NCBI RefSeq assembly: GCF_014145395.1
Contig: NZ_JACHTE010000006.1
Span: 186,001-250,000 of the forward strand
DNA: 64,000 nucleotides
Direction: 5' to 3'
DNA from: Marilutibacter penaei
GTDB lineage: Bacteria > Pseudomonadota > Gammaproteobacteria > Xanthomonadales > Xanthomonadaceae
Part shown: positions 26,909 to 64,000 of the stretch, in pieces
Layout: every line of letters begins with the position of its first letter
Position numbering within the stretch: the stretch's first letter is position 1
Translations under genes and position numbers: made by a program
The notes under the pieces: generated by a model
What the model was told of the DNA's origin: nothing
The model's database searches: none
The model's input: only the letters and a program-made list of their open reading frames with translations

Positions 26909-27022
26909 TGCACCCGACGGGGCAGGCGCTTCACGCGCTGGCCGGAATTGGAACAGGGGCTGGCCAAGTGCCCGCCGGGGAAGCAGAGGGCCGAATGTCG
27001 GGGGACGTTCGGCCCTTTTTTT
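26909..27022 (+). ncRNA. putative sigma-54-dependent small RNA (about 115 nt)
   Basis: The interval from the predicted start of the sigma-54 promoter to the T-run of an intrinsic terminator. It holds no convincing open frame with a ribosome-binding site. It contains GGCGCTTCACGCGC-type self-complementary stretches and a G-rich middle before the terminator hairpin. No known RNA family was recognised. It is separated from any downstream gene by the terminator, so it is unlikely to be a leader. Confidence 0.5.
26988..27022 (+). terminator. strong intrinsic terminator
   Basis: GGGCCGAATGTC (26988-26999) pairs with GACGTTCGGCCC (27004-27015), 12 pairs including one G-U, around a G4 loop. Seven T follow at 27016-27022. 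No plus-strand protein gene precedes it for over 2 kb, since mnmG runs the other way, so it must end a non-coding transcript. Confidence 0.85.
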
Positions 27023-40673: not shown

Positions 40674-40750
40674 GCGCCTGTAGCTCAGCCGGATAGAGTA
40701 GTGGCTTCCGAAGCCATTGGTCGGGGGTTCGAATCCCTCCAGGCGCGCCA
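40674..40750 (+). tRNA. tRNA-Arg (anticodon CCG)
   Basis: A full 77-base cloverleaf. Acceptor GCGCCTG (40674-40680) pairs with CAGGCGC (40740-40746); the discriminator is G and CCA is encoded at 40748-40750. The anticodon loop TTCCGAA places CCG at 40708-40710. The T-loop is GTTCGAATC. It reads CGG codons. A TAGAAT hexamer at 40615-40620 could be its -10 box. Confidence 0.97.
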
Positions 40751-50996: not shown

Positions 50997-52013
50997 ATGC
51001 TGTTCCAACACGTCGCCATCGCGGGCCTGGCCCATATCGACGCCCCGCGTCGCCTCAGCTCGGACGAGATCAACGAGCGGCTGAAGCCGACCCTCGATCG
51101 TCTCGGCATCCGCATCGACGTGCTCAAGGACATCGCCGGCATCAATGCCCGCCGCCTGTGGGACGGTGAGATGCAGGCTTCCGATGCCGCCACCCTGGCC
51201 GGCGTGAAGGCGCTGGCCGATGCCGGCATCGAGCCGGACCGCGTCGGCCTGCTGGTCAACACCTCGGTCAGCCGCGACTACCTCGAGCCGTCCACGGCCA
51301 GCATCGTCGCCGGCAACCTCAAGCTGACCGAGCACTGCCAGAACTTCGACGTCGCCAACGCCTGCCTGGCCTTCATCAATGGCATGGACATCGCCAGCCG
51401 GATGATCGAGCGCGGCGAGATCGACTATGCGCTGGTCGTCGACGGTGAAACCGCCGGCCTCGCCTACGAGAAAACGCTCGAACGCCTGTCGTCGCCCGAC
51501 ACCACCGAGGAGCAGTTCCGCAACGAACTCGCCACCCTCACCCTGGGCTGCGGCGCCGCCGCGATGGTCCTGGCCCGCGCCGAACTCGCTCCGGGCGCTC
51601 CGCGCTACCGCGGTGGCGTGACCCGTGCCGCCACCCAGTGGAACGGCCTGTGCCGGGGCAACCTCGACCGGATGGTCACCGATACCCGCCTGCTGCTCAG
51701 CGAGGGCCTCAAGCTGGCGCAGGCGACCTGGACCGCCGCGCGCGGGGCGCTGGGCTGGGTGGCGGACGAGCTGGACGAATTCGTGATCCACCAGGTGAGC
51801 CAGGTCCACACCAAGGCCTTCGTCAAGGCGTTCGGCATCGATCCGAAGAAGGTGCTGACGATCTTCGGCGAGCACGGCAACATCGGTCCGGCCTCGGTGC
51901 CGATCGTCCTCAGCAAGCTGCGTGAGATGGGCCGGCTGAAAAAGGGCGACCGCGTCGCCCTGCTGGGCATCGGGTCCGGCCTGAACTGCTCGATGGCCGA
52001 AGTGGTCTGGTAA
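50997..52013 (+). CDS. oleA: 3-oxo-acid (beta-keto acid) synthase OleA
   Basis: 338 residues of the thiolase superfamily. OleA joins two fatty acyl-CoA molecules head to head, giving a beta-keto acid for long-chain olefin synthesis. C123 (NACLAFINGM) is the nucleophile, with H265, N295 and E97. Each is exactly 20 residues before the catalytic Cys143, His285, Asn315 and Glu117 of the Xanthomonas campestris enzyme, so the active site is intact. It is the first ole gene, followed by a probable terminator and then an unrelated 11-kb module before oleB. Confidence 0.96.
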   Translation: MLFQHVAIAGLAHIDAPRRLSSDEINERLKPTLDRLGIRIDVLKDIAGINARRLWDGEMQASDAATLAGVKALADAGIEPDRVGLLVNTSVSRDYLEPSTASIVAGNLKLTEHCQNFDVANACLAFINGMDIASRMIERGEIDYALVVDGETAGLAYEKTLERLSSPDTTEEQFRNELATLTLGCGAAAMVLARAELAPGAPRYRGGVTRAATQWNGLCRGNLDRMVTDTRLLLSEGLKLAQATWTAARGALGWVADELDEFVIHQVSQVHTKAFVKAFGIDPKKVLTIFGEHGNIGPASVPIVLSKLREMGRLKKGDRVALLGIGSGLNCSMAEVVW

Positions 52014-52047: not shown

Positions 52048-52090
52048 AACGCCCCGATGCGAATGCGCCGGGGCGTTCTCGTTTCTGTCT
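52048..52090 (+). terminator. probable terminator after oleA
   Basis: AACGCCCCG (52048-52056) pairs with CGGGGCGTT (52069-52077), a nine-pair stem, followed by CTCGTTTCTGTC. It would cut oleA off from downstream genes. Confidence 0.6.
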
Positions 52091-52247: not shown

Positions 52248-52385
52248 ATGCAGGACAATCCCGCGCACAGCGCCGAGGCCGAGCGCCCGGACACCGTCGA
52301 GGAGGCGCCCCGCCGTCCCTGGGGCTTCGTGGTGTTCGCGCTGTTGATGCTCGCCACTGGAATGGCCGTGGTGCCGACGCCCTGA
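52248..52385 (+). CDS. 45-residue membrane protein downstream of oleA
   Basis: A short polar, acidic N-terminal half is followed by one membrane segment (GFVVFALLMLATGMAVV) near the C-terminus, so it is probably an inner-membrane tail-anchored peptide. AGGAG lies nine bases before the ATG. Not recognised. It sits between the oleA terminator and the DUF2170 promoter, and composition matches its neighbours. Confidence 0.55.
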   Translation: MQDNPAHSAEAERPDTVEEAPRRPWGFVVFALLMLATGMAVVPTP

Positions 52386-52681
52386 GCGGCCTGCCGCCGG
52401 GCTCGGGGAGCGAAGGTGCAGCATCCAGCATCCCCCGCCGCGGCCACGCGAGCGTGCCCGCGCGACGCCTGCATCCGGGCAACGATGACGCTTCACGGTC
52501 CGTGTCCGTCTCGCCGCCCACCTTGCGCCGCGCGCGAAAGGTGGGCCCATGCGCCGTCCACGGGGCGCGCCGCCGCGATCACGGGCGTTACCGCTCCCGC
52601 AAAGGATAGACGGCCGAGCGAGGCTGCCGGCGTCATCCGGCCCTTGGGTGGGACCAGCCGGTCTGAGGTCGCTCCGGCGCT
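52386..52681. other. 296 bases without a gene before the DUF2170 promoter
   Basis: No open frame with a ribosome-binding site was recognised here on either strand. The operator repeats begin at 52682. Confidence 0.5.
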
Positions 52682-52745
52682 CACATGTAATGCGGATATC
52701 ACACCACATGTAATGTGTTGACAGATGTCACATGTGATGTGTAGA
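52682..52745 (+). promoter_or_regulatory. promoter with three tandem CACATGTRATGYG operator sites
   Basis: Sites at 52682-52694, 52705-52717 and 52729-52741 share the 13-base core CACATGTRATGYG, spaced 23 and 24 bases apart. TTGACA at 52718-52723 and TGTAGA at 52740-52745 (16-base spacer) make a promoter whose spacer is filled by the third site. Transcription would start near 52752, so ATG 52754 would be leaderless or nearly so. Three spaced sites fit cooperative binding by a ribbon-helix-helix regulator; the downstream protein has such an N-terminus. Confidence 0.6.
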
Positions 52746-52753
52746 GTCGACCC

Positions 52754-53365
52754 ATGGAACGCAAGACCTCCGCCTACTACCAGCGCCGGCATCGCGAGCG
52801 ATTGCGCGAGATGGGGCTGGTGAAGAAGGAGCTTTGGATCCTGCCGGAGTTCGCTGACGAACTCGCGGCAGTGGAGCGACGCATGCGCCAGCCGCGAGGC
52901 TCGGTGCCTACCCAGAAGGAGAGTGGTATGAACGAGCCCAAGGTCTGGACCGCCACCGCGCTGCACGAGGCGTTGTCGGCCACGGACGCCTTCCGCAGCG
53001 GTGCGGTATCGGTGGAACTGCTGGACGGAGCCACCCCCAGCCTGCATCTGGTGATGCATGACTATGGCGACCTGCCGGTGTTCCTGGCGGTCGTGGGCGA
53101 GCAGATCGTGGTGGAAGCGCTGCTCTGGCCGCTGTCCCAGGTGGAGGATCCCGCCGCCTTCAACGAGGAAGTGCTGCGTACCCACAAGCTGTTCCCGCTG
53201 TCGACCATCGGCATCGAAGTGATCGACGGCGATCCCGTCTACATCATGTTCGGCGCACTGGATGCCAATTCCAGCCTGTCCAACGTGGTGTTCGAAATTG
53301 ACACCCTGGCCGACAACGTCATCAAGGTCACCGAGGCTTTCGAACCCCGCCTGCGCGCGGCGTGA
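52754..53365 (+). CDS. DUF2170 (YjfI-like) protein with an N-terminal ribbon-helix-helix-like extension
   Basis: 203 residues in two parts. Residues 59-203 are a DUF2170 domain (E. coli YjfI, 133 residues, beside the PspA-like YjfJ). Residues 1-50 read like a ribbon-helix-helix unit: basic AYYQRRHRERLREMGL, strand KKELWIL, then two short helices. An internal ATG at 52928 has a strong AAGGAGAG signal and would give a DUF2170-only form of about 145 residues. Both forms could be made: a long leaderless product that binds the tandem operators, and a short one. Autoregulation is inferred. It is first in the module and 30 bases before pspA. Confidence 0.82.
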   Translation: MERKTSAYYQRRHRERLREMGLVKKELWILPEFADELAAVERRMRQPRGSVPTQKESGMNEPKVWTATALHEALSATDAFRSGAVSVELLDGATPSLHLVMHDYGDLPVFLAVVGEQIVVEALLWPLSQVEDPAAFNEEVLRTHKLFPLSTIGIEVIDGDPVYIMFGALDANSSLSNVVFEIDTLADNVIKVTEAFEPRLRAA

Positions 53366-53395
53366 CCGCAGCGTCCGACTTTACGGAGAGACACC

Positions 53396-54088
53396 ATGAA
53401 CATCTGGAGCAAGCTGTTGACCGCACTGCGCGGCGGTGCGAACGAGGTGGGTGAGTCGATCGTCGACGGACAGGCGCTGCGCATCCTCGACCAGGAAATC
53501 CGTGATTCCGACGCGGAGTTGCGCCGTTCCAAGGAAGCGCTTGCCGGGATCATGGCCAAGCACAAGCTGGCCGAGGCCCGGCTGGCCCAGTCCAGCGAAA
53601 AGGTGGCCGAATACGAGGCGTACGCACTGAAGGCCCTGGCCTCGGACGACGAAGCGCTCGCGCGCGAAGTGGCCGGCAAGATCGCGGTGCTCGAGGGGGC
53701 GCGCAATGGCGAGCAGGCGCAGGTCGAGCAGTTCGCGGCCAGCATCGCGGAGCTTCGCAGGGCGATCGGCCAGGCCGAAACCAATATCCGTCGCCTGAAG
53801 CAGCAGGTGGACACGGTCAAGGCCACCGAGAGCGTCCAACGGGCGCAGGCGACGGTCGCGCACCGGTACAGCGGCTCGCAGAGCCGGATGCAGACCGCCG
53901 TGGATTCGCTGGAGCGCATCAAGCAGCGCCAGGCGGAGCGGGGCGCCCGGATGGACGCGGCCGCGGAACTGGCCCGGGACGAAGGCCAGGATGCCGTGGA
54001 CGCCAAGCTCAGGGATGCCGGCATCATCGCGGACGATGCCAGCGCGGAGTCGGTGCTGGAGCGGCTGAAACAGCAACAGGCCGGCTGA
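53396..54088 (+). CDS. pspA: PspA/IM30-family membrane-stress protein
   Basis: 230 residues, almost entirely helical. The hairpin starts NIWSKLLTALRGGANEVGESI, runs through DQEIRDSDAELRRSKEALAGIM and a long Ala/Glu/Gln coiled coil, and ends near LKQQQAG. PspA and its ESCRT-III relatives coat and repair stressed inner membranes. It is closest to the YjfJ branch, as the DUF2170 neighbour suggests, and no pspBC or pspF is present. ACGGAGAG precedes the ATG. Confidence 0.92.
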   Translation: MNIWSKLLTALRGGANEVGESIVDGQALRILDQEIRDSDAELRRSKEALAGIMAKHKLAEARLAQSSEKVAEYEAYALKALASDDEALAREVAGKIAVLEGARNGEQAQVEQFAASIAELRRAIGQAETNIRRLKQQVDTVKATESVQRAQATVAHRYSGSQSRMQTAVDSLERIKQRQAERGARMDAAAELARDEGQDAVDAKLRDAGIIADDASAESVLERLKQQQAG

Positions 54089-54224
54089 GCCCCCACGGGC
54101 ACTGCCTGCACGCACACGTACGCAGCGGCACGGAGGCCGCCCTCAAGCCGGGCATGGATGCCCGGCGACCCGACCGGTACCGCCGGCTCCGGGGCCCGCA
54201 CGCCGGCATCAGGGGAGATCGCCG

Positions 54225-54878
54225 ATGGACGTATTCCTGCAGATCGTTCTGTCCTACCCGACCGTGGTCTACAGCGTGTTGCTGGCCGTGGTGGTCGTGT
54301 ACTGGCTGGTCGCGATGCTCGGCATGATCGACCTGGACGCGGTGGACGGCTGGTTCGAGGCCGACCTTGACCTCGATGCGGCGGAAGCGGTCGACAGCGG
54401 CGGTTTCGCCGGCATCATGGCGCGCTTCGGCCTCGCCGGCCTGCCCCTGATGATCGTGGTCACCGTCCTGGTGCTGGTGGGCTGGCTGCTCAGCTACTTC
54501 GCCGACTACCTGCTGCTTCGCCACCTGCCCGGCGGGCTGTTCCGCCTGCTGCTGGGCAGCGGCGTGGTGCTGGCGACGCTGGTGGCGGCCGTGCCGGTCA
54601 CCGGGGTGTTGCTGCGTCCCGTCCGGGCGCTCTACGACAGGCTGCGCCCCGAACCGCCGCGCTCGCTGCTGGGCATGGCGGGCACCGTCCGCAGCCCGGT
54701 GGTCGATGCCGGACAGGGCATCGCCGCGGTCGAGGACGGTGGCGCCGGGCTGGTGCTGCAGGTGCGCAGCGACGCCGCCAGCGGATTCAGGCGCGGCGAC
54801 CGCGTGGTACTGCTGGAATACCTCGAGGACGTGAACGCCTACCGTGTCGTCGGCGAGGATGAATTCAGGGGGTCGTGA
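54225..54878 (+). CDS. YqiJ-like OB-fold inner-membrane protein
   Basis: 217 residues. An N-terminal membrane segment (about residues 11-33) and two or three further ones (70-130) are followed by a C-terminal OB-fold-like domain (LGMAGTVRSPVVDAGQGIAAV, FRRGDRVVLLEYLED). It resembles E. coli YqiJ, the partner of the flotillin YqiK, and NfeD proteins that pair with flotillins. The flotillin gene follows, so the same pairing is likely. The ATG follows GGGGAGATCGCCG. Confidence 0.85.
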   Translation: MDVFLQIVLSYPTVVYSVLLAVVVVYWLVAMLGMIDLDAVDGWFEADLDLDAAEAVDSGGFAGIMARFGLAGLPLMIVVTVLVLVGWLLSYFADYLLLRHLPGGLFRLLLGSGVVLATLVAAVPVTGVLLRPVRALYDRLRPEPPRSLLGMAGTVRSPVVDAGQGIAAVEDGGAGLVLQVRSDAASGFRRGDRVVLLEYLEDVNAYRVVGEDEFRGS

Positions 54879-54931
54879 CCACGGTGTCGCGATCCATCGG
54901 ATGGACAACCCGTACTTAGGGAGATGGGGCA

Positions 54932-56914
54932 ATGGTGCTTGAACAGTTGATGCCGTTCCTGGTGGTCGTCGGCGTGGTGATCGTGGCGATCTTCGGGCTT
55001 TTCGGCCTGGTGAAGGCCTTCTACGTGAAGGTGCCGCAGGGCACCGCGTTGATCGTGAACGACCTGTCGGCCACGCCGAAGGTCCACTTCACCGGTGCCA
55101 TGGTGCTGCCGGTGATCTACAAGCAGGAGTTCATGAAGATCTCCCTGATCACGCTGGAAGTCGACCGGCGTGGCAAGGATGGACTCATCTGCCAGGACAA
55201 CATGCGCGCCGACATCACGGTCGCCTTCTACCTGCGCGTCAACGAGACCCAGCAGGACGTCCTCAAGGTGGCGAAGGCGATCGGCGTCGATCGCGCCTCC
55301 GACCGCGTCGCGGTCAACGAGCTGTTCAACGCCAAGTTCTCCGAGGCGCTGAAGACCGTCGGCAAGCAGATCGATTTCGTGAAGCTGTTCGAGAACCGGC
55401 AGGAGTTCCGGGACCGCATCATCGAGGTCATCGGCAACGACCTGAACGGCTATGTCCTCGAAGACGTGGCGATCGACTACCTCGAGCAGACGCCCAAGGC
55501 CTCGCTCGATCCCAGCAACATCCTCGACGCCGAGGGCATCCGGAAGATCACCGAGCTGACCGCGGCGCAGAACGTCATCACCAATGAGCTCTCGCGCAAC
55601 GAAGAGCTGGCGATCAAGAAGAAGAACGTCGAGACCCGCGAGGCCATGCTCGCGCTGGAACGCCAGCAGGCCGACGCCGAGGCGCGCCAGAAGCGCGAGA
55701 TCGAGACGATCCGTGCGCGCGAGGAAGCGGAGACGCTGAAAGTGCAGGAGGAAGAGCGCCTCAAGGCCGAGCAGGCGCGCATCGGCGTGCAGGAACAACT
55801 CGACATCCGCGAGGAGAACCGCCTGCGTGAAGTCGAGGTTGCCCAGCAGAACCGCCAGCGGGCGGTGGTCATCGAAGTCGAGAAGGTCACCCGCGCGAAG
55901 GACCTGGAGGTCGTTTCGCGCGAGCGCGAGGTGGAGCTGCAGAAGATCGAGAAGGAAAAGGCGCTGGAGGAACAGCGCAAGGAGATCGCCAACGTCATCC
56001 GCGAGCGCGTCGCGGTCGAGAAGACCGTCGCGCAGGAAGAGGAGCGCATCAAGGAGGTGCGCGAGGTGTCCGAGGCGGACCGCCAGAAGCAGGTCACCAT
56101 CCTCGATGCGCAGGCCCGTGCCGAGCAGGAACTGGTGCGGCAGGTGAAGCAGGCCGAGGCCGACGAAACGGCGGCACGCCACAAGGCGGTCGAAGTGACG
56201 GTGCTGGCGCAGGCGGACCTGGAGGCGGCGGCCAAGCAGTCCGAAGCCAAGAAGAAGCTGGCGGAAGGTGTCGAGGCGGAGCGCGCCGCGCCGGGCCTGG
56301 CCGACGCACGCGTGCGCGAAGTGACAGCGGCGGCGCTGGAGAAGGAGGGCCTGGCCGAAGCGAAGGTCATCGCCGAGAAGCTGACCGCCGAGGCGCGGGG
56401 CGACAAGGAGAAGGGGCTCACCGAGGCCAAGGTGCTGGAGGAGAAGCTGTCGGCGCAGGCGCGCGGCGAGCAGTCGCTGGGCGAGGCCAAGGCCAAGGCC
56501 ACGCGCGACGTCGGCCTGTCCGAGGCCGAGGTGCTGCTGACGAAGTTGAAGTCCGAGGCCGAGGGACTGGAGGACAAGTTCGCATCGCTGGAAGCGCTGT
56601 CCGAGAACGCCCGTTCCCACGAAGAGTTCCGCATGCAGCTTGAGAAGAGCTTTGAGCAGGCGATTGCGGGGATCGAGGCCAACAAGGACATTGCCCGTGA
56701 GCAGGCCGAGGTGCTGGCGACCGCGCTGGGCAAGGCCAACATCGACATCGTCGGGGGCGAAGGCGAGTTCTTCAATTCCTTCGCGAAGGCGCTGTCGGTC
56801 GGCAAGGCCATCGAGGGCGTGGCCGGCAAGAGCCCGATCGTGCAGGAACTGCTCGAGAAGCTGGCATCGATCAAGACCGGCGACCGCAAGGACGGGTCCG
56901 CGCTGGATCCCTGA
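54932..56914 (+). CDS. flotillin (YqiK-like) membrane-microdomain scaffold
   Basis: 660 residues. A membrane anchor (about residues 8-30) is followed by an SPFH/Band-7 domain (about 31-200, with KVPQGTALIVND and LDPSNILDAEGIRKI) and a very long Glu/Ala/Lys coiled coil (about 210-560), then a C-terminal globular end (LGKANIDIVGGEGEFF). Flotillins organise lipid microdomains and recruit partners. It is about 100 residues longer than E. coli YqiK (553); the extra length lies near 445-540, where EKL-(T/S)A-(E/Q)ARG-type units repeat. It is paired with the YqiJ-like gene just upstream. Confidence 0.92.
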   Translation: MVLEQLMPFLVVVGVVIVAIFGLFGLVKAFYVKVPQGTALIVNDLSATPKVHFTGAMVLPVIYKQEFMKISLITLEVDRRGKDGLICQDNMRADITVAFYLRVNETQQDVLKVAKAIGVDRASDRVAVNELFNAKFSEALKTVGKQIDFVKLFENRQEFRDRIIEVIGNDLNGYVLEDVAIDYLEQTPKASLDPSNILDAEGIRKITELTAAQNVITNELSRNEELAIKKKNVETREAMLALERQQADAEARQKREIETIRAREEAETLKVQEEERLKAEQARIGVQEQLDIREENRLREVEVAQQNRQRAVVIEVEKVTRAKDLEVVSREREVELQKIEKEKALEEQRKEIANVIRERVAVEKTVAQEEERIKEVREVSEADRQKQVTILDAQARAEQELVRQVKQAEADETAARHKAVEVTVLAQADLEAAAKQSEAKKKLAEGVEAERAAPGLADARVREVTAAALEKEGLAEAKVIAEKLTAEARGDKEKGLTEAKVLEEKLSAQARGEQSLGEAKAKATRDVGLSEAEVLLTKLKSEAEGLEDKFASLEALSENARSHEEFRMQLEKSFEQAIAGIEANKDIAREQAEVLATALGKANIDIVGGEGEFFNSFAKALSVGKAIEGVAGKSPIVQELLEKLASIKTGDRKDGSALDP

Positions 56915-57020
56915 TCCGGCGTCCGGCCGGGGCGGCGCGCCGGCCGGACGGGAGGGCGGCACGGCCATGCGCCGTGCCACGACATGACGTGGCCCCGGCA
57001 AGGGGTGGGGAAGGCAGGCG

Positions 57021-60000
57021 ATGGCGGAACGGGACGTACAGACGGAAGGCGCGCCGGAACGGCCGGGCTCCGCGGTCGACAAGGCAGTCGCGGAAGGCGG
57101 TGCCTACGAGGTGTTGCAGCGCCGCCTGGTGGAGCAGGGCCGGCAGTTGGACGCGCATGCGGCGACGCTCAATGCCCGCCGCCTGGAGACCTTCGGCAGC
57201 AGTCGCATGGAGCTGCTGGGGCGGTTGAGGGTCCGCACCGGGCACAACTGCGTCGCACGCGACCTGGTCCAGGTCGGCGACCGGCTGCTGTTCGGCTACA
57301 ACGTGTTCCTCGGGCTGAAGAAGGAAACCCGGGTCGAGGACGTGTTCTCGCTGTATCAGCTGGTCGAGACCGCCGAAGGCCACGACGTCACCCCGGTGGC
57401 GATCGCGGACAGCTTCCTCGGCAACGACGCCTTCGTGCAGGATTTCCGCGAGCTGTACGCCTATTACAAGGACACCCGGCTGGTGCAGCTGGCGGTGCGG
57501 GACGGCAAACTGCTGGCCGCGTTCCAGATCGGCGAGCGCCTCGACGACCTGCGCGTGTTCCGCTGGACGCTTTCGGACGAGGGCCGGGAGGTCCGGTACA
57601 TCGACAATCGCGGCGAGCGCGACATCGCCCTGCCCGCGCCCTATGACTTCGAATGGACCGAAGCCACCCGGGAGATGGCCGTCAACGGCCGCCATCCGCA
57701 CCTCAACATCCTCGACACGGTGTTCGTCGAGACCCTCGGCGGCGACCTCACGATCAAGATCGAGGACAACACCGAGGACGGTGCCGGTATCTACACCGAG
57801 CCGGTGGAGGACGCGACCCAGTCGCTCGACGATGCCCGGGTGGCATTCGCCCGGCTCGGCAGTTTGCTGCTGCTGAAGATCCTCCCGTACCGGGAGCGCG
57901 ATTGGCGCTACCTCGTCTACAACATCCACACCCGCCAGGTGCGCCGCATCGACGAGATCGGCCAGGCCTGCATCCAGTTGCCCGAGGACCACGGCATCGT
58001 GTTCCCCGGCGGCTACTACCTGCAGAACGGCGAGTACAAGGCGTTCGAACAGTCCATGCAGGGCATGCGCTTCAGCCGTTCGCTGCGCTCCCCCAATGGC
58101 GAGGACGTGCTTTACGTCTTCTATGAGCCGGCAGCGGGCCGCACCGCGCTGTTCACCTACAACATGATCGAGCGTCGCTTGCAGACGCCGATGTTCGGCC
58201 ACGGCATGGCGCGGCTGTCCGATGGCCGGATGGTGCTGTTCTCCTCCGAGAGCGACGAACCGACCCGCGTGCACCCGATGCAGGTCTGGCAGACCCCCTT
58301 CACCAGCGACGAGTTCGCGGCGCGGCAACCGGCCGACAACAGTGCGTTGGGGCGTATCGGCAATGCCGAGCTGGTACGCGGCATTTCGGACCTGTACGGG
58401 CTGGCGCGTGCGATCGGCGGAGGCGAGGTATCGGCACACCGCTACGAGCAGCTCGCGCACGACGCCCGCCGCCTGTTCGACCTGCACCACTGGATCGCGG
58501 AGGCCCAGTCGGGCGGGATCGCTTCGCTGTTGCACGAGATCGTCGCGACGAGCGAGTCGGTGCTGGACGAGTACGAGAAGGTCGAGGGCATACGCCGGCA
58601 GTCCGCGGAGGCGATGGCCTCGGCCGAAGCGGCGCAGAAGGCGCTGCTGGGCGGACTGCGGCCGGACGACTGGGACGAGGTGCAGCCGTTCGTGGAAGCG
58701 CTGAACGCACTCTCCCGCCACCGGGGCCGCCTGCTGACGCTGCGCGAGCAGCGCTATGTCGACACGGTGCGCATCGATGAACTCGAAGCGCGGGTGCAGG
58801 AGGCGCAGGCAGGCATCGGCAGCGCCACCGGGCGCTACCTCGCCAGTGAACGGTCCCTGCAGCCGTTCGAAGCGCGCCTGGAAACGCTGGATGCGGAAGC
58901 GCAGGCCGTGGGCAGCGTCAACGGGATCGATGCCCCGCTGCAGGCCATGCAGTCCATGTCGGCCGACCTGGACATGCTGTCGGAACTGATGGCGCGCCTG
59001 AAGGTCGAGGATGCCACCCAGCGCACCCGCATCGTCGAGTCGATATCGGCGTTGTATGCGCGCCTCAACCAGGCCAAGGCGCGGGCATCGCAGCGACGGA
59101 AGCAACTGGGTTCGGCCGAATCGGTGGCGCAGTTCGGCGCGCAGTTCAGCCTGTTCTCGCAGAGCATTGCCAGCGCATTGGCGCTGGCGCAGGATCCCGA
59201 GGCCTGCGACGAGCAGTTGTCGCGGCTGATGGTGCAGCTGGAGGAGCTGGAGAGCCAGTTCGGCGAGCACGAACAGTTCCTCGACGACATCCTCGCCAAG
59301 CGCGAGGAACTCCTGGAGACGTTCGAGGCGCACAAGCAGACGCTCGTGGACGTGCGCCAGCGCAAGGCGCAGGCGGTCGCCGACGCGGCCACCCGGATCC
59401 TCGACGGACTGGGGCGCCGCACGGAACGCCTGCAGGGCGCGGATGAGCTCAACGCCTTCTTCGCCGGGGACCCGCTGATCCTCAAGCTGCGGGAACTGGT
59501 CGAACGCCTGCGCGATCTGCGCGACAACGTGCGGGCCGACGACATCGAAGCGCGTCTGAAGGCCACGCGCGACCAGGCGGTCAGGGGCCAACGCGACCGC
59601 AGCGAGCTGTTCGAAGCCGGCGGCGATGTCATCAGGCTGGGGCCGCGCCATCGCTTCAGCGTGAATACCCAGCCCCTCGACATCACCGTGCTGCCCCGTG
59701 GCGACGGACTGGCCCTGCACCTGACCGGGACCGACTTCTTCGAACCGCTGCATGACGACGTGCTGGAGGCATCGCGCGACTACTGGCAGGTCTCGCTGGA
59801 CTCCGAATCGCCGGCGCTCTACCGCGGCGAGTATCTTGCGGGCCTGGTGCTGGACGCCGCCCGCGAAGGCCGCGACGGGCTGGACATGGCGCTGCTCACG
59901 CAGGCGCTCGCGCAACCCGATGCCATGGCGGCGCGGGTCCGGCAGTTCGCTGCACCCCGGTATCGGGAAGGGTACGAGAAAGGCATCCACGACCACGATG

Positions 60001-62327
60001 CCGCGTTGATCCTGCAAGCGCTGATCCCGCTGCAACAGAGCGCAGGCGGCCTGATCCACGCGCCGGATGCCCGCGCGCTGGCCTGGCTGTCCTGGCACGC
60101 GCTGCGGGGTACGGAGCCGGGCGAACGTTGGCCCGGGCGTGCCCGAACGGTCGCCGATATCGCGCGGCTGCTGGGACGCCGCGAGGGCATCGCCGCGCTG
60201 GAGGCGGAGATCGCCGAGACCATTGCCGGCCGGATCGAAGCGCTGGACTGGCCCTTCGCGCCCGCCCTTGCGGCTTCTGCGGCGGCGTATCTTGCCGCCG
60301 AATTGTCGGCCCCGCATCCGCGCCTGTGGGCGAGCGGCCCGGCCCGCGACCTCCTCGAAGCGCTGCGTTCGCGATTGACCGCCAGCCATGCCTGGGAGGG
60401 CCTCGAGCAGGCGCTTGCAGTCCTGCAGGCGCGTCCCGGCGCGCAGTGGGCGCTGGCGCGCAGCTGGCTCCAGGCGCTCGCCGCGGAACCCGGGCATGCC
60501 CCATCGGCACGCCACGTGGACGAAGCGGTGGGCCTGTTGCTGCTCGGGGAGCCGCTCGGGTTGAAGGTGTCGGAAACCGCGTTGTCGGTCCGCGTGGATG
60601 GCCTGCTGGGGGAGCATCCGCGCATCGAGGACGGTGGCATGTCGCTGGCCGTGGACGACTTCGCCACGCGCCTGCGGCAGCACCGCGACCGGTTCGTGCC
60701 CGGGTTCCAGCGCTACCAGGCGCAGCGCCAGGCCGTGGTCGAACGCGAGCGCAAGGCGATGAAGCTGGAGGCGTTCAAGCCGCGGCCGCTGAGCTCGTTC
60801 GTACGCAACCGGCTCATCAACGAGGTCTATCTGCCGGTGATCGGCGACAACCTCGCGAAGCAGATGGGCACCGTGGGCGAATCCAAGCGCAGCGACCTGA
60901 TGGGGCTGCTGATGATGATTTCGCCCCCCGGCTACGGCAAGACCACGCTGATGGAGTACGTGGCGCACCGGCTGGGCCTGAATTTCATGAAGGTCAACGG
61001 GCCGGCGCTCGGGCACCACGTGCGTTCGCTGGACCCGGCGCAGGCGCCCGACGCGACCTCCCGCCAGGAACTGGAGAAGCTCAACCTGGCCCTGGAGATG
61101 GGCAACAACGTGATGCTGTACGTGGACGACATCCAGCACACGAATCCGGAGTTCCTGCAGAAATTCATATCGCTGTGCGACGGGACGCGTCGCATCGAGG
61201 GCGTGTGGAAGGGCGATACCCGCACCTACGACATGCGCGGAAAGAAGTTCTGCGTGGTGATGGCAGGCAACCCGTACACCGAGTCGGGCGAGGTCTTCCG
61301 GATCCCCGACATGCTGGCCAACCGGGCCGACATCTACAACCTGGGCGACGTGCTGGGCGGCATGGAGGATGCCTTCACCCTCAGTTACATCGAGAATTGC
61401 CTGACCTCCAATCCCGTGTTGGCGCCGCTCGCCACGCGGGATCTCGCCGACCTCTACCGTTTCGTGGACAAGGCGCGTGGCCTCGCGTTCTCGGCCAATG
61501 CCCTCAGCCATGCCTACAGCGGCGCGGAGGTCAACGAGATCACGGCGGTACTCGAGCGCCTGCTCAAGGTGCGTGACACCGTCTACCGCGTGAACCAGCA
61601 GTACATCGCCAGTGCCGCGCAGGCGGACCGTTACCGCACCGAACCGCCGTTCAAGCTGCAGGGCAGCTACCGCAACATGAACAAGCTGGCGGAGAAGCTG
61701 TCACCGGTCATGAACGATGCGGAGCTCAAGCAGTTGATCGACGACCACTACCTGGGCGAGGCGCAACTGCTGACCACGGGGGCGGAAGAGAACCTGCTGA
61801 AGCTGGCCGAACTTCGGGGGACGCAGGATGCCGACCAGCAGCAGCGCTGGGCGCAGATCAAGCGCGACTTCATGCGGAACAAGGCCATGGGCGGCGAGGA
61901 CGCCGACGTCGGCCAGCGCGTGGTCGCGCAGCTGGCCGACCTGACCGAGGGCGTGCGCGCCTGGAGCGCCGATGCGGACACACGGCGGAGCGCGGTAGCC
62001 GACGCGCCGTGGCCTGCGTTGCTGGAGGTGCTGGAGCGCATCGCGAAGCCACAGGGGGAGAACGCGGTCGCGGCCGCGCCGCCGACCGAAGCATCGCACG
62101 CGTCGGAGGCGCCGGGTCTCGCCGCGGCGGTGGTCGCGGCCTTCGCCCCGCTGGTGGACAGCCTGCAGGCACGGGCGGAACAGCAATCACGGCTGCTGGC
62201 CGAGCTGGTGCGGCTCGCCGATCGCAGTCCGGATGCCGTCGTCCTCAGCGAAACCGAGCGGCAGATGCAGTTGGAACAGGCGTTGAAGGAGTTCGCCGAT
62301 CGCCTGCACGGCCGGACATCCCGCTAG
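57021..62327 (+). CDS. giant AAA+ ATPase (DUF3686-type 'DNA repair ATPase')
   Basis: 1768 residues. A beta-rich N-terminal part (about 1-520) is followed by a coiled-coil region (about 520-870), a helical middle part and a C-terminal AAA+ domain. Walker A SPPGYGKT is at 1301-1308, Walker B MLYVDD at 1365-1370, and a sensor-1-like segment VMAGNPYTES at about 1412. Databases call this family 'DNA repair ATPase', but nothing here shows DNA repair. Its neighbours are membrane proteins, so a large remodelling ATPase acting with PspA and flotillin is plausible. GGGGAAGG precedes the ATG. Confidence 0.88.
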   Translation: MAERDVQTEGAPERPGSAVDKAVAEGGAYEVLQRRLVEQGRQLDAHAATLNARRLETFGSSRMELLGRLRVRTGHNCVARDLVQVGDRLLFGYNVFLGLKKETRVEDVFSLYQLVETAEGHDVTPVAIADSFLGNDAFVQDFRELYAYYKDTRLVQLAVRDGKLLAAFQIGERLDDLRVFRWTLSDEGREVRYIDNRGERDIALPAPYDFEWTEATREMAVNGRHPHLNILDTVFVETLGGDLTIKIEDNTEDGAGIYTEPVEDATQSLDDARVAFARLGSLLLLKILPYRERDWRYLVYNIHTRQVRRIDEIGQACIQLPEDHGIVFPGGYYLQNGEYKAFEQSMQGMRFSRSLRSPNGEDVLYVFYEPAAGRTALFTYNMIERRLQTPMFGHGMARLSDGRMVLFSSESDEPTRVHPMQVWQTPFTSDEFAARQPADNSALGRIGNAELVRGISDLYGLARAIGGGEVSAHRYEQLAHDARRLFDLHHWIAEAQSGGIASLLHEIVATSESVLDEYEKVEGIRRQSAEAMASAEAAQKALLGGLRPDDWDEVQPFVEALNALSRHRGRLLTLREQRYVDTVRIDELEARVQEAQAGIGSATGRYLASERSLQPFEARLETLDAEAQAVGSVNGIDAPLQAMQSMSADLDMLSELMARLKVEDATQRTRIVESISALYARLNQAKARASQRRKQLGSAESVAQFGAQFSLFSQSIASALALAQDPEACDEQLSRLMVQLEELESQFGEHEQFLDDILAKREELLETFEAHKQTLVDVRQRKAQAVADAATRILDGLGRRTERLQGADELNAFFAGDPLILKLRELVERLRDLRDNVRADDIEARLKATRDQAVRGQRDRSELFEAGGDVIRLGPRHRFSVNTQPLDITVLPRGDGLALHLTGTDFFEPLHDDVLEASRDYWQVSLDSESPALYRGEYLAGLVLDAAREGRDGLDMALLTQALAQPDAMAARVRQFAAPRYREGYEKGIHDHDAALILQALIPLQQSAGGLIHAPDARALAWLSWHALRGTEPGERWPGRARTVADIARLLGRREGIAALEAEIAETIAGRIEALDWPFAPALAASAAAYLAAELSAPHPRLWASGPARDLLEALRSRLTASHAWEGLEQALAVLQARPGAQWALARSWLQALAAEPGHAPSARHVDEAVGLLLLGEPLGLKVSETALSVRVDGLLGEHPRIEDGGMSLAVDDFATRLRQHRDRFVPGFQRYQAQRQAVVERERKAMKLEAFKPRPLSSFVRNRLINEVYLPVIGDNLAKQMGTVGESKRSDLMGLLMMISPPGYGKTTLMEYVAHRLGLNFMKVNGPALGHHVRSLDPAQAPDATSRQELEKLNLALEMGNNVMLYVDDIQHTNPEFLQKFISLCDGTRRIEGVWKGDTRTYDMRGKKFCVVMAGNPYTESGEVFRIPDMLANRADIYNLGDVLGGMEDAFTLSYIENCLTSNPVLAPLATRDLADLYRFVDKARGLAFSANALSHAYSGAEVNEITAVLERLLKVRDTVYRVNQQYIASAAQADRYRTEPPFKLQGSYRNMNKLAEKLSPVMNDAELKQLIDDHYLGEAQLLTTGAEENLLKLAELRGTQDADQQQRWAQIKRDFMRNKAMGGEDADVGQRVVAQLADLTEGVRAWSADADTRRSAVADAPWPALLEVLERIAKPQGENAVAAAPPTEASHASEAPGLAAAVVAAFAPLVDSLQARAEQQSRLLAELVRLADRSPDAVVLSETERQMQLEQALKEFADRLHGRTSR

Positions 62328-62337
62328 GATCGGCGAA

Positions 62338-63054
62338 ATGGACTTCGACGCACTCGACCGGCAGCTCCGGGACAGCATCGCCGACCAGCGGCTGGACAAC
62401 GAGGAGCGCCATGAACTCCGGCAGCTGGGTGAACGCATCGATCGCGAGCAGGTGCGCTTCCTGCGCAACCGCGCCTTCGCGATGGTCCGCGAGGGCCTTG
62501 AGGCGAACCCGGGCGACGCGCGGGCGCTGCTGAAGTGGCTGGAGCAGGTGGTGCGGACGCTGGACGGCGCCACCGCCGTCTCCACGGTGGCCTCCACGGC
62601 CTGTTTCACGCCGGGCGACGCCTGCCTGCGCAAACTCCGGGAACTCTGCCGCGACGCACGCGCGTCGATCGACATCTGCGTGTTCACCATCTCGGACGAT
62701 CGCCTGCGCGAAGCCATCCTCGATGCCCATCGGCGTGGCGTCCGGGTGCGGGTCATCAGTGACGACGAGAAGGTGCTGGATACCGGCAACGACATTGCCT
62801 GGTTGCGGGATCGCGGGGTCGCGGTGCGACTGGACGACAGCCGCCACCACATGCACCACAAATTCGCGCTGTTCGACGGCCGGCTGCTGGCGAACGGCAG
62901 TTTCAACTGGACGCGGAGTGCCAGCGTGTACAACCAGGAGAACCTGGCGGTCACCGACAATACGCACCTGGTCCGCTGTTACGCGGGCGAATTCGAAGCC
63001 CTTTGGGCCCGCTATGGGCACCGGCCTGTGCGGGGGGCCGCCGGCACGGGATAA
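62338..63054 (+). CDS. single-HKD phospholipase-D-like protein (Nuc/PLD6 type)
   Basis: 238 residues. A helical N-terminal part (about 1-90) precedes one PLD-like domain with the HKD motif HHKFALFD (H173, K175, D180) and GSFNWT. A single HKD motif means it must dimerise. The closest pattern is the Nuc nuclease / mitochondrial PLD6 (zucchini) branch, which cuts nucleic acids or cardiolipin. No signal peptide is seen. The gene starts ten bases after the ATPase stop and belongs to the same unit. Confidence 0.85.
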   Translation: MDFDALDRQLRDSIADQRLDNEERHELRQLGERIDREQVRFLRNRAFAMVREGLEANPGDARALLKWLEQVVRTLDGATAVSTVASTACFTPGDACLRKLRELCRDARASIDICVFTISDDRLREAILDAHRRGVRVRVISDDEKVLDTGNDIAWLRDRGVAVRLDDSRHHMHHKFALFDGRLLANGSFNWTRSASVYNQENLAVTDNTHLVRCYAGEFEALWARYGHRPVRGAAGTG

Positions 63055-63082
63055 TGGCGCCCCCGCCGTCCCCGAGCTGCCG

Positions 63083-63979
63083 ATGCCCGTCGCGTCCTAT
63101 CCCGAGTACCCCTTCACCCCGAAACGCCTGGAGGTGCGGCCGGGCATCGGCATGAGTTACCTCGACGAGGGCCCTCGCGACGGCGAAGTGGTCGTCATGC
63201 TGCACGGCAATCCATCGTGGAGTTACTACTGGCGCAAACTGGTGTCGGGTCTGTCGGACCGCTACCGCTGCATCGTGCCGGACCACGTCGGCATGGGATT
63301 GTCCGATCGTCCGGACGATGCCGCCTACGCATACACGCTGCAGTCGCGTGTCGACGATCTCGAAACGCTGCTCCAGCACCTGGGCGTCACCGGCCCGGTG
63401 ACGCTGGCGGTGCACGACTGGGGTGGCATGGTCGGCTTCGGCTGGGCGCTGGCACGGCGGGAACGGGTGCGCCGGCTGGTGGTGCTGAACACCGCGGCGT
63501 TCCCGCTGCCTGCGGCGAAGCCGATGCCGTGGCAGCTGTCGATGGGCCGCGATTCTCGCATCGGCGGCTTCCTGATCCGCGCGTTCAACCTGTTCGCGCG
63601 GGGTGCGACCCGGTTCGGCGTCGAAACGAAGATGCCGGCCGGCGTGCGCCATGCCTTCGAGGCGCCGTACAACGGCTGGACCAACGCGATCAGCACGCTG
63701 CGTTTCATGCAGGACATCCCACTGGCGGAAGGCGACCGCGCGTGGTCGCTGGTGGCGGAGTCGGGCCGGGTGCTGCACGAGTACGCCGACCGGCCGGTGT
63801 TCATCGGCTGGGGGCTGCGCGATTTCGTGTTCGACCGGCACTTCCTCGAGGGCTTCAAGGCCGCGCTGCCGGGCGCGGAGGTGCATGCGTTCGAGGACGC
63901 AAACCATTACGTGCTGCAGGACAAGGCCGAGGTGCTGGTGCCTGCGATCCGGGCGTTCCTCGATCGGCATCCTCTGTAA
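63083..63979 (+). CDS. oleB: OleB beta-lactone decarboxylase (haloalkane-dehalogenase-like)
   Basis: 298 residues of the alpha/beta-hydrolase fold, haloalkane-dehalogenase branch. HGNPSW at 41-46 gives the halide/oxyanion residues, the nucleophile D112 lies in VHDWGG and His is near 275 (ANHYV). OleB decarboxylates the beta-lactone made by OleC and releases the olefin. In related bacteria oleC and oleD follow; the window ends 21 bases after the stop. It starts 28 bases after the PLD-like gene and appears to be transcribed with it. Confidence 0.93.
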   Translation: MPVASYPEYPFTPKRLEVRPGIGMSYLDEGPRDGEVVVMLHGNPSWSYYWRKLVSGLSDRYRCIVPDHVGMGLSDRPDDAAYAYTLQSRVDDLETLLQHLGVTGPVTLAVHDWGGMVGFGWALARRERVRRLVVLNTAAFPLPAAKPMPWQLSMGRDSRIGGFLIRAFNLFARGATRFGVETKMPAGVRHAFEAPYNGWTNAISTLRFMQDIPLAEGDRAWSLVAESGRVLHEYADRPVFIGWGLRDFVFDRHFLEGFKAALPGAEVHAFEDANHYVLQDKAEVLVPAIRAFLDRHPL

Positions 63980-64000
63980 AGCAGAGCATGTCTTGTCGCG

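Follow-up and report, generated by a model that had tools for sequence, protein, structure and literature searches.

How PspA operons that lack PspF sense membrane damage is a question raised by a locus in which such an operon stands inside a gene cluster for hydrocarbon synthesis. PspA is a bacterial relative of ESCRT-III. The locus lies in a window of 64,000 nt, the whole stretch of DNA analyzed here (contig C13 of genome G000, positions 186001 to 250000; whole genome, 3.17 Mb). Eight genes, all of them open reading frames (ORFs) without interruption, follow each other on the forward strand between 50997 and 63979: oleA, bacA, pspA, a YqiJ-like gene, a flotillin gene, an AAA+ ATPase gene, a gene for a phospholipase D (PLD)-like protein, and oleB. 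The initial annotation had described six co-directional genes between oleA and oleB, and both the ORFs and the domain matches agree with it. We consider it quite likely that these genes form a BAC/PSP-type membrane-stress operon that was inserted, probably once, between oleA and oleB and that is repressed by its own first product, BacA. The gene set itself is known, and the promising new element is its regulation by a BacA autorepression circuit. The gene set, the ole setting, the operator, the specificity of this operator, and its coupling to the BacA N terminus all emerge from sequence comparison. A candidate operator, a candidate repressor domain, and its putative partner can be named here in one operon common to Pseudomonas and Lysobacteraceae.

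Operator, promoter, and N terminus of BacA

A 13-bp inverted repeat, CACAT-N3-ATGTG, occurs three times upstream of bacA, at 52682, 52705, and 52729, with a spacing of 23 and 24 bp. Their arrangement relative to the promoter and the gene is as follows.

52682..52694, no strand assigned: operator copy 1, CACAT-N3-ATGCG, with one mismatch to the inverted repeat (repeat comparison)
52705..52717, no strand assigned: operator copy 2, CACATGTAATGTG, immediately ahead of the -35 hexamer (repeat comparison)
52718..52747, forward strand: sigma-70-type promoter TTGACA-18-TAGAGT, the -10 of which ends 6 nt ahead of the bacA ATG (promoter scan)
52729..52741, no strand assigned: operator copy 3, CACATGTGATGTG, between -35 and -10 (repeat comparison)
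52754..53365, forward strand: bacA, encoding a ribbon-helix-helix (RHH)-like N-terminal domain (residues 1 to ~50) and a DUF2170/CesT-Tir-like domain (PF09938, 9e-51; NCBIfam BacA, 348 bits)

The module proper starts at the promoter near 52682. The initial annotation had named the right genes but let the block begin at 52248, which is the start of a 45-codon ORF for which no conservation was found. Of the two sigma-70-type sites detected in this region (0.6 expected), TTGACA-18-TAGAGT scored higher. In 41 of 49 loci, the distance between the end of a -10-like hexamer and the bacA start was 6 to 7 nt, and the bacA mRNA is therefore predicted to be leaderless.

The paired core ACATGTRA-N12-16-ACATGTRA occurred at one place in its own genome, the bacA promoter. 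In a family sample of 198 genomes, the pair with a slightly looser first half was found in 23, while a reversed-pattern control gave no matches. The site was located 4 to 6 kb upstream of the AAA gene in 22 of these 23 genomes; in the remaining one (G160), it was found on a 4.1-kb contig beside bacA and pspA. Likewise, ACATGT pairs were present in 46 of 63 bacA loci (excluding duplicates and L059, in which the BacA match starts at residue 42), and every pair was spaced at 22 to 24 bp. TTNCATGWAA sites were present in 13 of the remaining 17 loci. No pair was detected in 472 upstream regions of pspA, yqiJ, flotillin, AAA, PLD, oleA, oleB, and oleC from the same loci. A conserved operator thus overlies the promoter of bacA itself and is unique in its own genome, as would be expected of an autorepressor.

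A second operator type, TTWCATGWAA-N11-16-TTWCATGWAA, was found in 8 of the 198 genomes sampled from the family, with no overlap with the 23. Its sites each lay 4 to 6.5 kb upstream of an AAA gene and went with a second clade of BacA. Operator type followed the BacA tree (4 changes versus 17 in shuffles), a result helped by near-copies; the tree left out 11 Pseudomonas-type loci as well as duplicates and short matches.

The same coupling was seen in a class-wide sample of 369 genomes, 27 of which had a DUF2170 match. In eight of the 27, including the window genome, the match began at the N terminus (long BacA), and the seven long BacA proteins other than that of the window were 43 to 53% identical. 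In six of these seven genomes, the ACATGT pair occupied the corresponding place in the promoter; both palindromes were perfect (TTACATGTAA) in five of them, and in the sixth, one copy had a single mismatch. No pair was found at the 21 short-DUF2170 places, where the 500 to 600 bp before the aligned start were scanned and four single ACATGT sites were seen, nor was there one upstream of yqiJ in 28 modules without bacA. Genome-wide, the pair was present in 7 of 8 long-BacA genomes (window included) versus 5 of 361 others (Fisher p, 4e-11). It follows from the counts for long BacA, short DUF2170, and BacA-less modules that the site goes with the BacA N-terminal extension and not with the module.

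Residues 1 to ~50 of BacA were strongly conserved, with 13 invariant columns in 25 sequences. By sequence, this N terminus resembled UrfF, a family of plasmid repressors, in 22 of the 25 members (best match, 3e-6) and a family of MazE-like antitoxins in 18 of the 25 (best match, 0.0014). The RHH domain that the initial annotation had placed in the DUF2170 protein is favored by these weak but repeated family matches and by the operator evidence, although those of the window protein stay below the curated thresholds. The PDB chain 8q8o (146 residues) matched only residues 61 to 202 of the window BacA. This chain is probably the crystal of PMC10948618, as residues named in that paper fit it at a constant shift of 33. 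PA3732 has been described as a 16-kDa protein (PMC2587700). This size and the extent of 8q8o indicate that the studied Pseudomonas aeruginosa protein, judged from the published protein alone, probably lacks the DNA-binding part.

Gene content and the ole setting

Beyond bacA and its promoter, the locus comprises the following features.

50997..52013, forward strand: oleA (thiolase-like OleA); ORF with a match to NCBIfam PRK09258 / NF006720 (461 bits)
52061..52078, forward strand: terminator-like hairpin downstream of oleA, considered weak because such sites numbered 5 versus 4.5 expected from shuffles
53396..54088, forward strand: pspA (bacB type); PF04012 at 7e-53
54225..54878, forward strand: YqiJ-like membrane protein gene (bacC type); ORF and syntenic family alignment
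54932..56914, forward strand: flotillin/SPFH protein gene (bacD type); PF01145 (Band_7) on residues 33 to 181
57021..62327, forward strand: gene for a DUF3686-DUF7902-AAA+ ATPase of 1,768 amino acids (bacE type); PF12458 (DUF3686) at 3e-202, PF25472, and AAA
62338..63054, forward strand: gene for a single-HKD PLD-like protein (bacF type); PF13091 at 2e-27
63050..63063, forward strand: GATAATGGCGCCCC block, likely the -10 region of oleB; conserved in relatives
63083..63979, forward strand: oleB (alpha/beta hydrolase); PF00561

Intergenic gaps within the module ranged from 10 to 136 bp. The DUF2170 gene immediately precedes pspA, with a gap of 30 bp, and a PspA match was present in 26 of 28 sampled DUF2170 loci. 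No credible match to the YqiJ-like gene was obtained in Pfam, NCBIfam, or PDB searches, and its name derives from its operon position and from PMC11237479. The first 223 residues of the flotillin matched Band_7 at 3e-7, the full-length query gave no Pfam match, and comparison with PDB sequences gave no useful one. DUF3686 is, in light of PMC11237479, probably the N-terminal propeller of the AAA+ ATPase. The oleA product is named merely 3-oxoacyl-ACP synthase III by NCBIfam (NF006720), and its identity as an ole gene comes from the oleB-C-D neighborhood; its relatives ranged from 97% down to 77% identity among the matches listed. Past the window end, a reverse-strand PF03692 gene is followed by oleC and oleD. 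The ole cluster (oleA, oleB, oleC, and oleD) is present, its first two genes parted by the module.

The six-gene module has been described before. Ravi et al. (2024; PMC11237479) reported a CesT/Tir(DUF2170)-PspA dyad together with a band-7/flotillin protein and a YqiJ/YuaF protein, an AAA+ ATPase that carries a coiled coil and a beta-propeller, and a PLD-family hydrolase in some Proteobacteria. Furthermore, bacA to bacF of P. aeruginosa PA14 were found to be one operon by reverse transcription-PCR (PMC10948618). The joining of yjfIJ-like, yqiJK-like, AAA, and PLD parts to which the initial annotation drew attention is therefore real but already in print. Its view of the six genes as one module was borne out, as the same set recurs in Pseudomonas and Lysobacter and is thus no chance grouping. 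Lampropedia holds the gene set without PLD, and the PLD gene was likewise not found in the locus of G089. Among the best 80 of 576 loci fetched with the AAA protein, which are not a census, eight had oleA and/or oleB in the retrieved DNA; many Pseudomonas loci of this set had the six parts, and none had oleA or oleB. In eight loci of the second BacA clade (L037, L045, L052, L058, L071, L111, L112, and L115), PLD lay ~1.8 to 2 kb past the AAA gene, and something else is therefore inserted between the two. The yqiJ-flotillin-AAA genes of L039, a record titled Bacillus subtilis SK7B5, were as similar to those of the window as Stenotrophomonas and Luteimonas loci are, and the record is therefore probably mislabeled or contaminated.

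In the family sample, in which the presence of oleA and oleB was scored at E below 1e-40, each of the two genes was found in 196 of 198 genomes. The AAA protein had a long match in 44 genomes, the remaining matches being short and generic to AAA, and the 23 genomes named above had the window type of operon, recognizable by its operator. Among the matches listed, the oleB start was within ~1.3 kb of the module and in the same direction in 17 of the 23, whereas it was 5 kb away in G115 and 16 to 17 kb from the AAA gene in G173, G157, G138, and G090. oleA was at most 3.2 kb upstream of the module in 14 of the 23 and elsewhere in G141, G065, G019, G093, G119, and G048; its position in G157 and G160 was obscured by contig ends. 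From these positions, 22 of the 23 operon-bearing genomes keep at least one ole gene near.

In an AAA tree of 77 rows, every ole-linked module that it contained fell into a single supported, deeply branching clade (22 rows). The tree omitted 25 loci thinned out by hand (chiefly of Pseudomonas and Stenotrophomonas), duplicate entries of named loci, and matches of <1,300 residues, among them those of G119 and G011. (In G011, at C18:184638-189910, the AAA gene is split over two overlapping frames, possibly by a frameshift or a sequencing error.) The insertion is therefore old and probably single. oleA and oleB without an intervening module were found in family members L110, L117, and L119, and the genes upstream of oleA are common to relatives; the module therefore entered a standing ole cluster. 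Insertion probably took place a single time, in an ancestor from which several Lysobacteraceae genera descend, and the module would have been mostly inherited in place. The gene-order search that the initial annotation had outlined recovered the order oleA-module-oleB in several genera. The initial annotation had also held that a recent chance insertion, or a module found elsewhere without an ole link and split by a terminator, would speak against its view. The former is ruled out by the deep splits within the single clade of ole-linked AAA proteins, while the module does exist widely without an ole link.

In the genus of the window, oleA was away from the module in five of six other sampled genomes, and the sixth was not judgeable. 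Within 6 kb downstream of oleA, G141, G065, and G119 (L102, L103, and L106) share genes, and G019 and G093 share another gene; at least one rearrangement has therefore parted oleA from the module, and the order in the window may be either retained or restored. By eye, oleA in L102 is followed downstream by a LysR-type regulator and then by malate synthase and isocitrate lyase. A conserved gene of ~81 residues was observed between oleA and bacA in relatives, after oleA in L087, L090, L091, L095, L097, and L118 and before bacA in L083 to L086. This gene, TerB-like by eye, persists without the module (L118) and where oleA has moved (L083 to L086). It had no Pfam match and was not seen in the window, which has the 45-codon ORF (52248-52385) at this place. 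Elsewhere in the window are the Rfam small RNA asX1 of Xanthomonadaceae (26911-27022, forward strand; 96 bits) and a tRNA-Arg with anticodon CCG (40674-40750, forward strand).

A candidate circuit and its rivals

In the proposed circuit, BacA would be a repressor in which an N-terminal RHH-like DNA-binding domain is fused to a CesT/Tir-like chaperone domain. Translated from a leaderless message, BacA would dimerize, and its dimers would bind the ACATGT-centered palindromes, about two helical turns apart, which flank or overlap the -35 and -10 of bacA, and so block RNA polymerase. The signal would be PspA, the product of the adjacent gene, held by the chaperone domain. Once PspA is drawn to damaged membrane, the balance between PspA and BacA would shift, in the direction of relieved repression, and derepression would jointly increase PspA, YqiJ, flotillin, AAA+, and PLD, which would remodel membranes in an ATP-driven process. 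As a first guess, by analogy with antitoxins and with PspA-PspF, PspA may act as a co-repressor rather than as a titrator of BacA. PspA restrains the activator PspF. We give an even chance to the broader idea that the RHH-chaperone fusion of BacA constitutes a second PspA control logic, a sigma-70 self-repressor with PspA as its stress-sensitive partner in antitoxin-toxin fashion, which would mirror PspA-PspF; the P. aeruginosa protein examined to date would be missing its DNA-binding domain. In the repair step, PspA would carry out the remodeling, flotillin and YqiJ would form a scaffold, AAA+ would provide the driving force, and PLD would process lipid or nucleic acid, as family knowledge and PMC11237479 suggest.

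Published measurements bear on this circuit. In a bacA transposon mutant of PA14, BacB was increased 7.2-fold, BacC 7.9-fold, BacD 13.5-fold, and the next two products 8.9- and 6.1-fold (PMC10948618), which fits autorepression. The same paper mentions a strong BacA-BacB interaction as unpublished, and this interaction was predicted at 0.981 in PMC13092808.

Several observations argue against a singly inserted, BacA-repressed operon. The PA14 mutant is a transposon insertion, and transposon read-out could raise the downstream genes; moreover, the authors of PMC10948618 take BacA as key for expression and propose sigma-54 control. The window BacA scored below curated cutoffs (PF11455, 16 bits versus 22; UrfF, 18 bits versus 100), and a PDB profile search with the BacA N terminus gave no RHH structure, for which reasons the domain is called RHH-like here. 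In four Betaproteobacteria bacA loci, ACATGT occurred singly or at other spacings; one long-BacA genome (G497) was without the operator, and five of the 361 genomes without long BacA had a pair. The two operator types also overlap, as TTACATGTAA fits both patterns. With respect to the single insertion, G011 has the operon and neither ole gene in the 28 kb examined, the AAA tree was a quick search, and the oleA adjacency of the window is unusual within its genus.

The weak sequence similarity of BacA to RHH proteins, and the fact that binding by BacA is a prediction, leave room for the palindromes being the site of another regulator. We regard this as improbable, as the operator tracks the BacA N-terminal extension and not DUF2170, PspA, or the remaining module genes, operator type goes with BacA clade, and the genome holds no second exact copy of the pair. 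Control by sigma-54 has been proposed from sequence for the bac operon of P. aeruginosa (PMC2587700, PMC10948618). However, that site was placed relative to the 16-kDa ORF and, as the studied BacA is the shorter form, probably lies inside a longer coding region, while the long bacA start has the TTGACA-18-TAGAGT promoter with a -10-like hexamer at a near-constant distance from the ATG in most loci; sigma-54 is thus a very unlikely driver of this operon. An anti-phage defense system combining AAA and a PLD nuclease with membrane parts would agree with the weak PADLOC matches of PLD to MkoC (6e-8) and DrmC (8e-8). These matches look like generic PLD-domain similarity, the other genes had no credible defense match, and the operon is inherited with its lineage, which makes defense scarcely credible.

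It is also conceivable that the module and the hydrocarbon pathway cooperate, with stress-induced read-through from the module raising OleB and tuning membrane olefins. PLD and oleB are separated by 28 bp in the window and, for the most part, by <310 bp in the relatives mapped, all of which have the two genes in the same direction. In 17 of the 23 genomes with the operon, the distance from the module to oleB is at most 1.3 kb, and a terminator-like site was found in just 1 of 16 module-oleB gaps scanned (G061). However, most of the relatives mapped have a GATAATGGCGCCCC or TTATCCTTGGCGGCC block with small variants, the likely core promoter of oleB, shortly before this gene, at a varying distance from the start. 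G189 (L118), a genome with both oleA and oleB and no AAA match, has the block as well. It was not found in G061, L110, L117, or L119, in the last three of which oleB follows oleA, and G012 had only a looser TATCCT. Furthermore, 196 of 198 genomes have ole genes and 44 the module, oleB is 16 to 17 kb from the AAA gene in four genomes, and the BacA operator was not found upstream of oleA, oleB, or oleC. Cooperation is therefore unlikely. The tie to hydrocarbon-modified membranes suggested by the initial annotation is not supported, given that ole genes are near universal with or without the module and that oleB has its own promoter-like block. A BacA regulon that takes in the ole genes is ruled out by the lack of an operator at these genes, and a single transcript from oleA is ruled out by the bacA promoter and operators lying between. 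A single transcript from 52750 to 63980 is possible in the window genome, where the PLD-oleB gap is short, but the comparison with relatives does not point to one. Between the adjacent oleA and oleB of L117 and L119, a strong hairpin followed by TTTT was observed by eye, and even contiguous oleA and oleB may therefore be separate transcripts. Overall, the position of the module beside ole showed no sign of function and looks like an inherited address.

If BacA autorepression is true, it would correct the view of the bac operon as sigma-54 controlled and the domain architecture assigned to BacA, the solved structure of which would be without the DNA-binding part, and the published bacA-mutant proteomics would be reinterpreted as derepression.

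Comparison with known systems

The operon of Ravi et al. (PMC11237479) has a gene set identical to that of the window module, and DUF2170 was recognized there as CesT/Tir-like. In contrast to the present reading, the relevant passages of that paper assign RHH not to DUF2170 but to different genes of different operons, and its main text has no occurrence of "olefin," "Lysobacter," "operator," or "autoregul." Among the open-access papers surveyed, largely by title, no report of an ACATGT operator or of BacA as an RHH repressor was found. The bacA to bacF genes of P. aeruginosa likewise encode a DUF2170 BacA, a PspA-like BacB, a membrane protein, an SPFH protein, and two further products (PMC2587700, PMC10948618); from other Pseudomonas loci, bacE and bacF are probably the AAA and PLD genes. 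The published BacA of P. aeruginosa is the 16-kDa DUF2170 part, with its regulation attributed to sigma-54, whereas the window BacA has an N-terminal RHH-like domain, an operator, and ole neighbors. The oleABCD cluster of Xanthomonas campestris (PMC7064751) has the same oleA, oleB, PF03692 gene, oleC, and oleD; it includes two extra genes (PF13784 and PF03692), whereas the window has an 11-kb operon between oleA and oleB.

In Escherichia coli yjfIJKL, DUF2170 is likewise directly ahead of a PspA homologue. We take E. coli YjfI to be a short form without RHH, and the short DUF2170 forms sampled here differ in being without the operator. RHH antitoxins autoregulate toxin-antitoxin operons, and the proposed circuit would work like such autoregulation, with a small DNA-binding domain joined to a partner-binding domain, a gene directly before that of the partner, and paired operators over its own promoter. 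Membership is not claimed, and PspA is not known to be a toxin. PspF, PspB, and PspC were not among the genes of the window operon, the remainder of the genome not having been searched for them. The likeness to the E. coli PspF-PspABC system lies in the PspA homologue, in membrane stress, and in probable control via a PspA-binding transcription factor, but PspF is a sigma-54 activator, whereas BacA would be a sigma-70 repressor.

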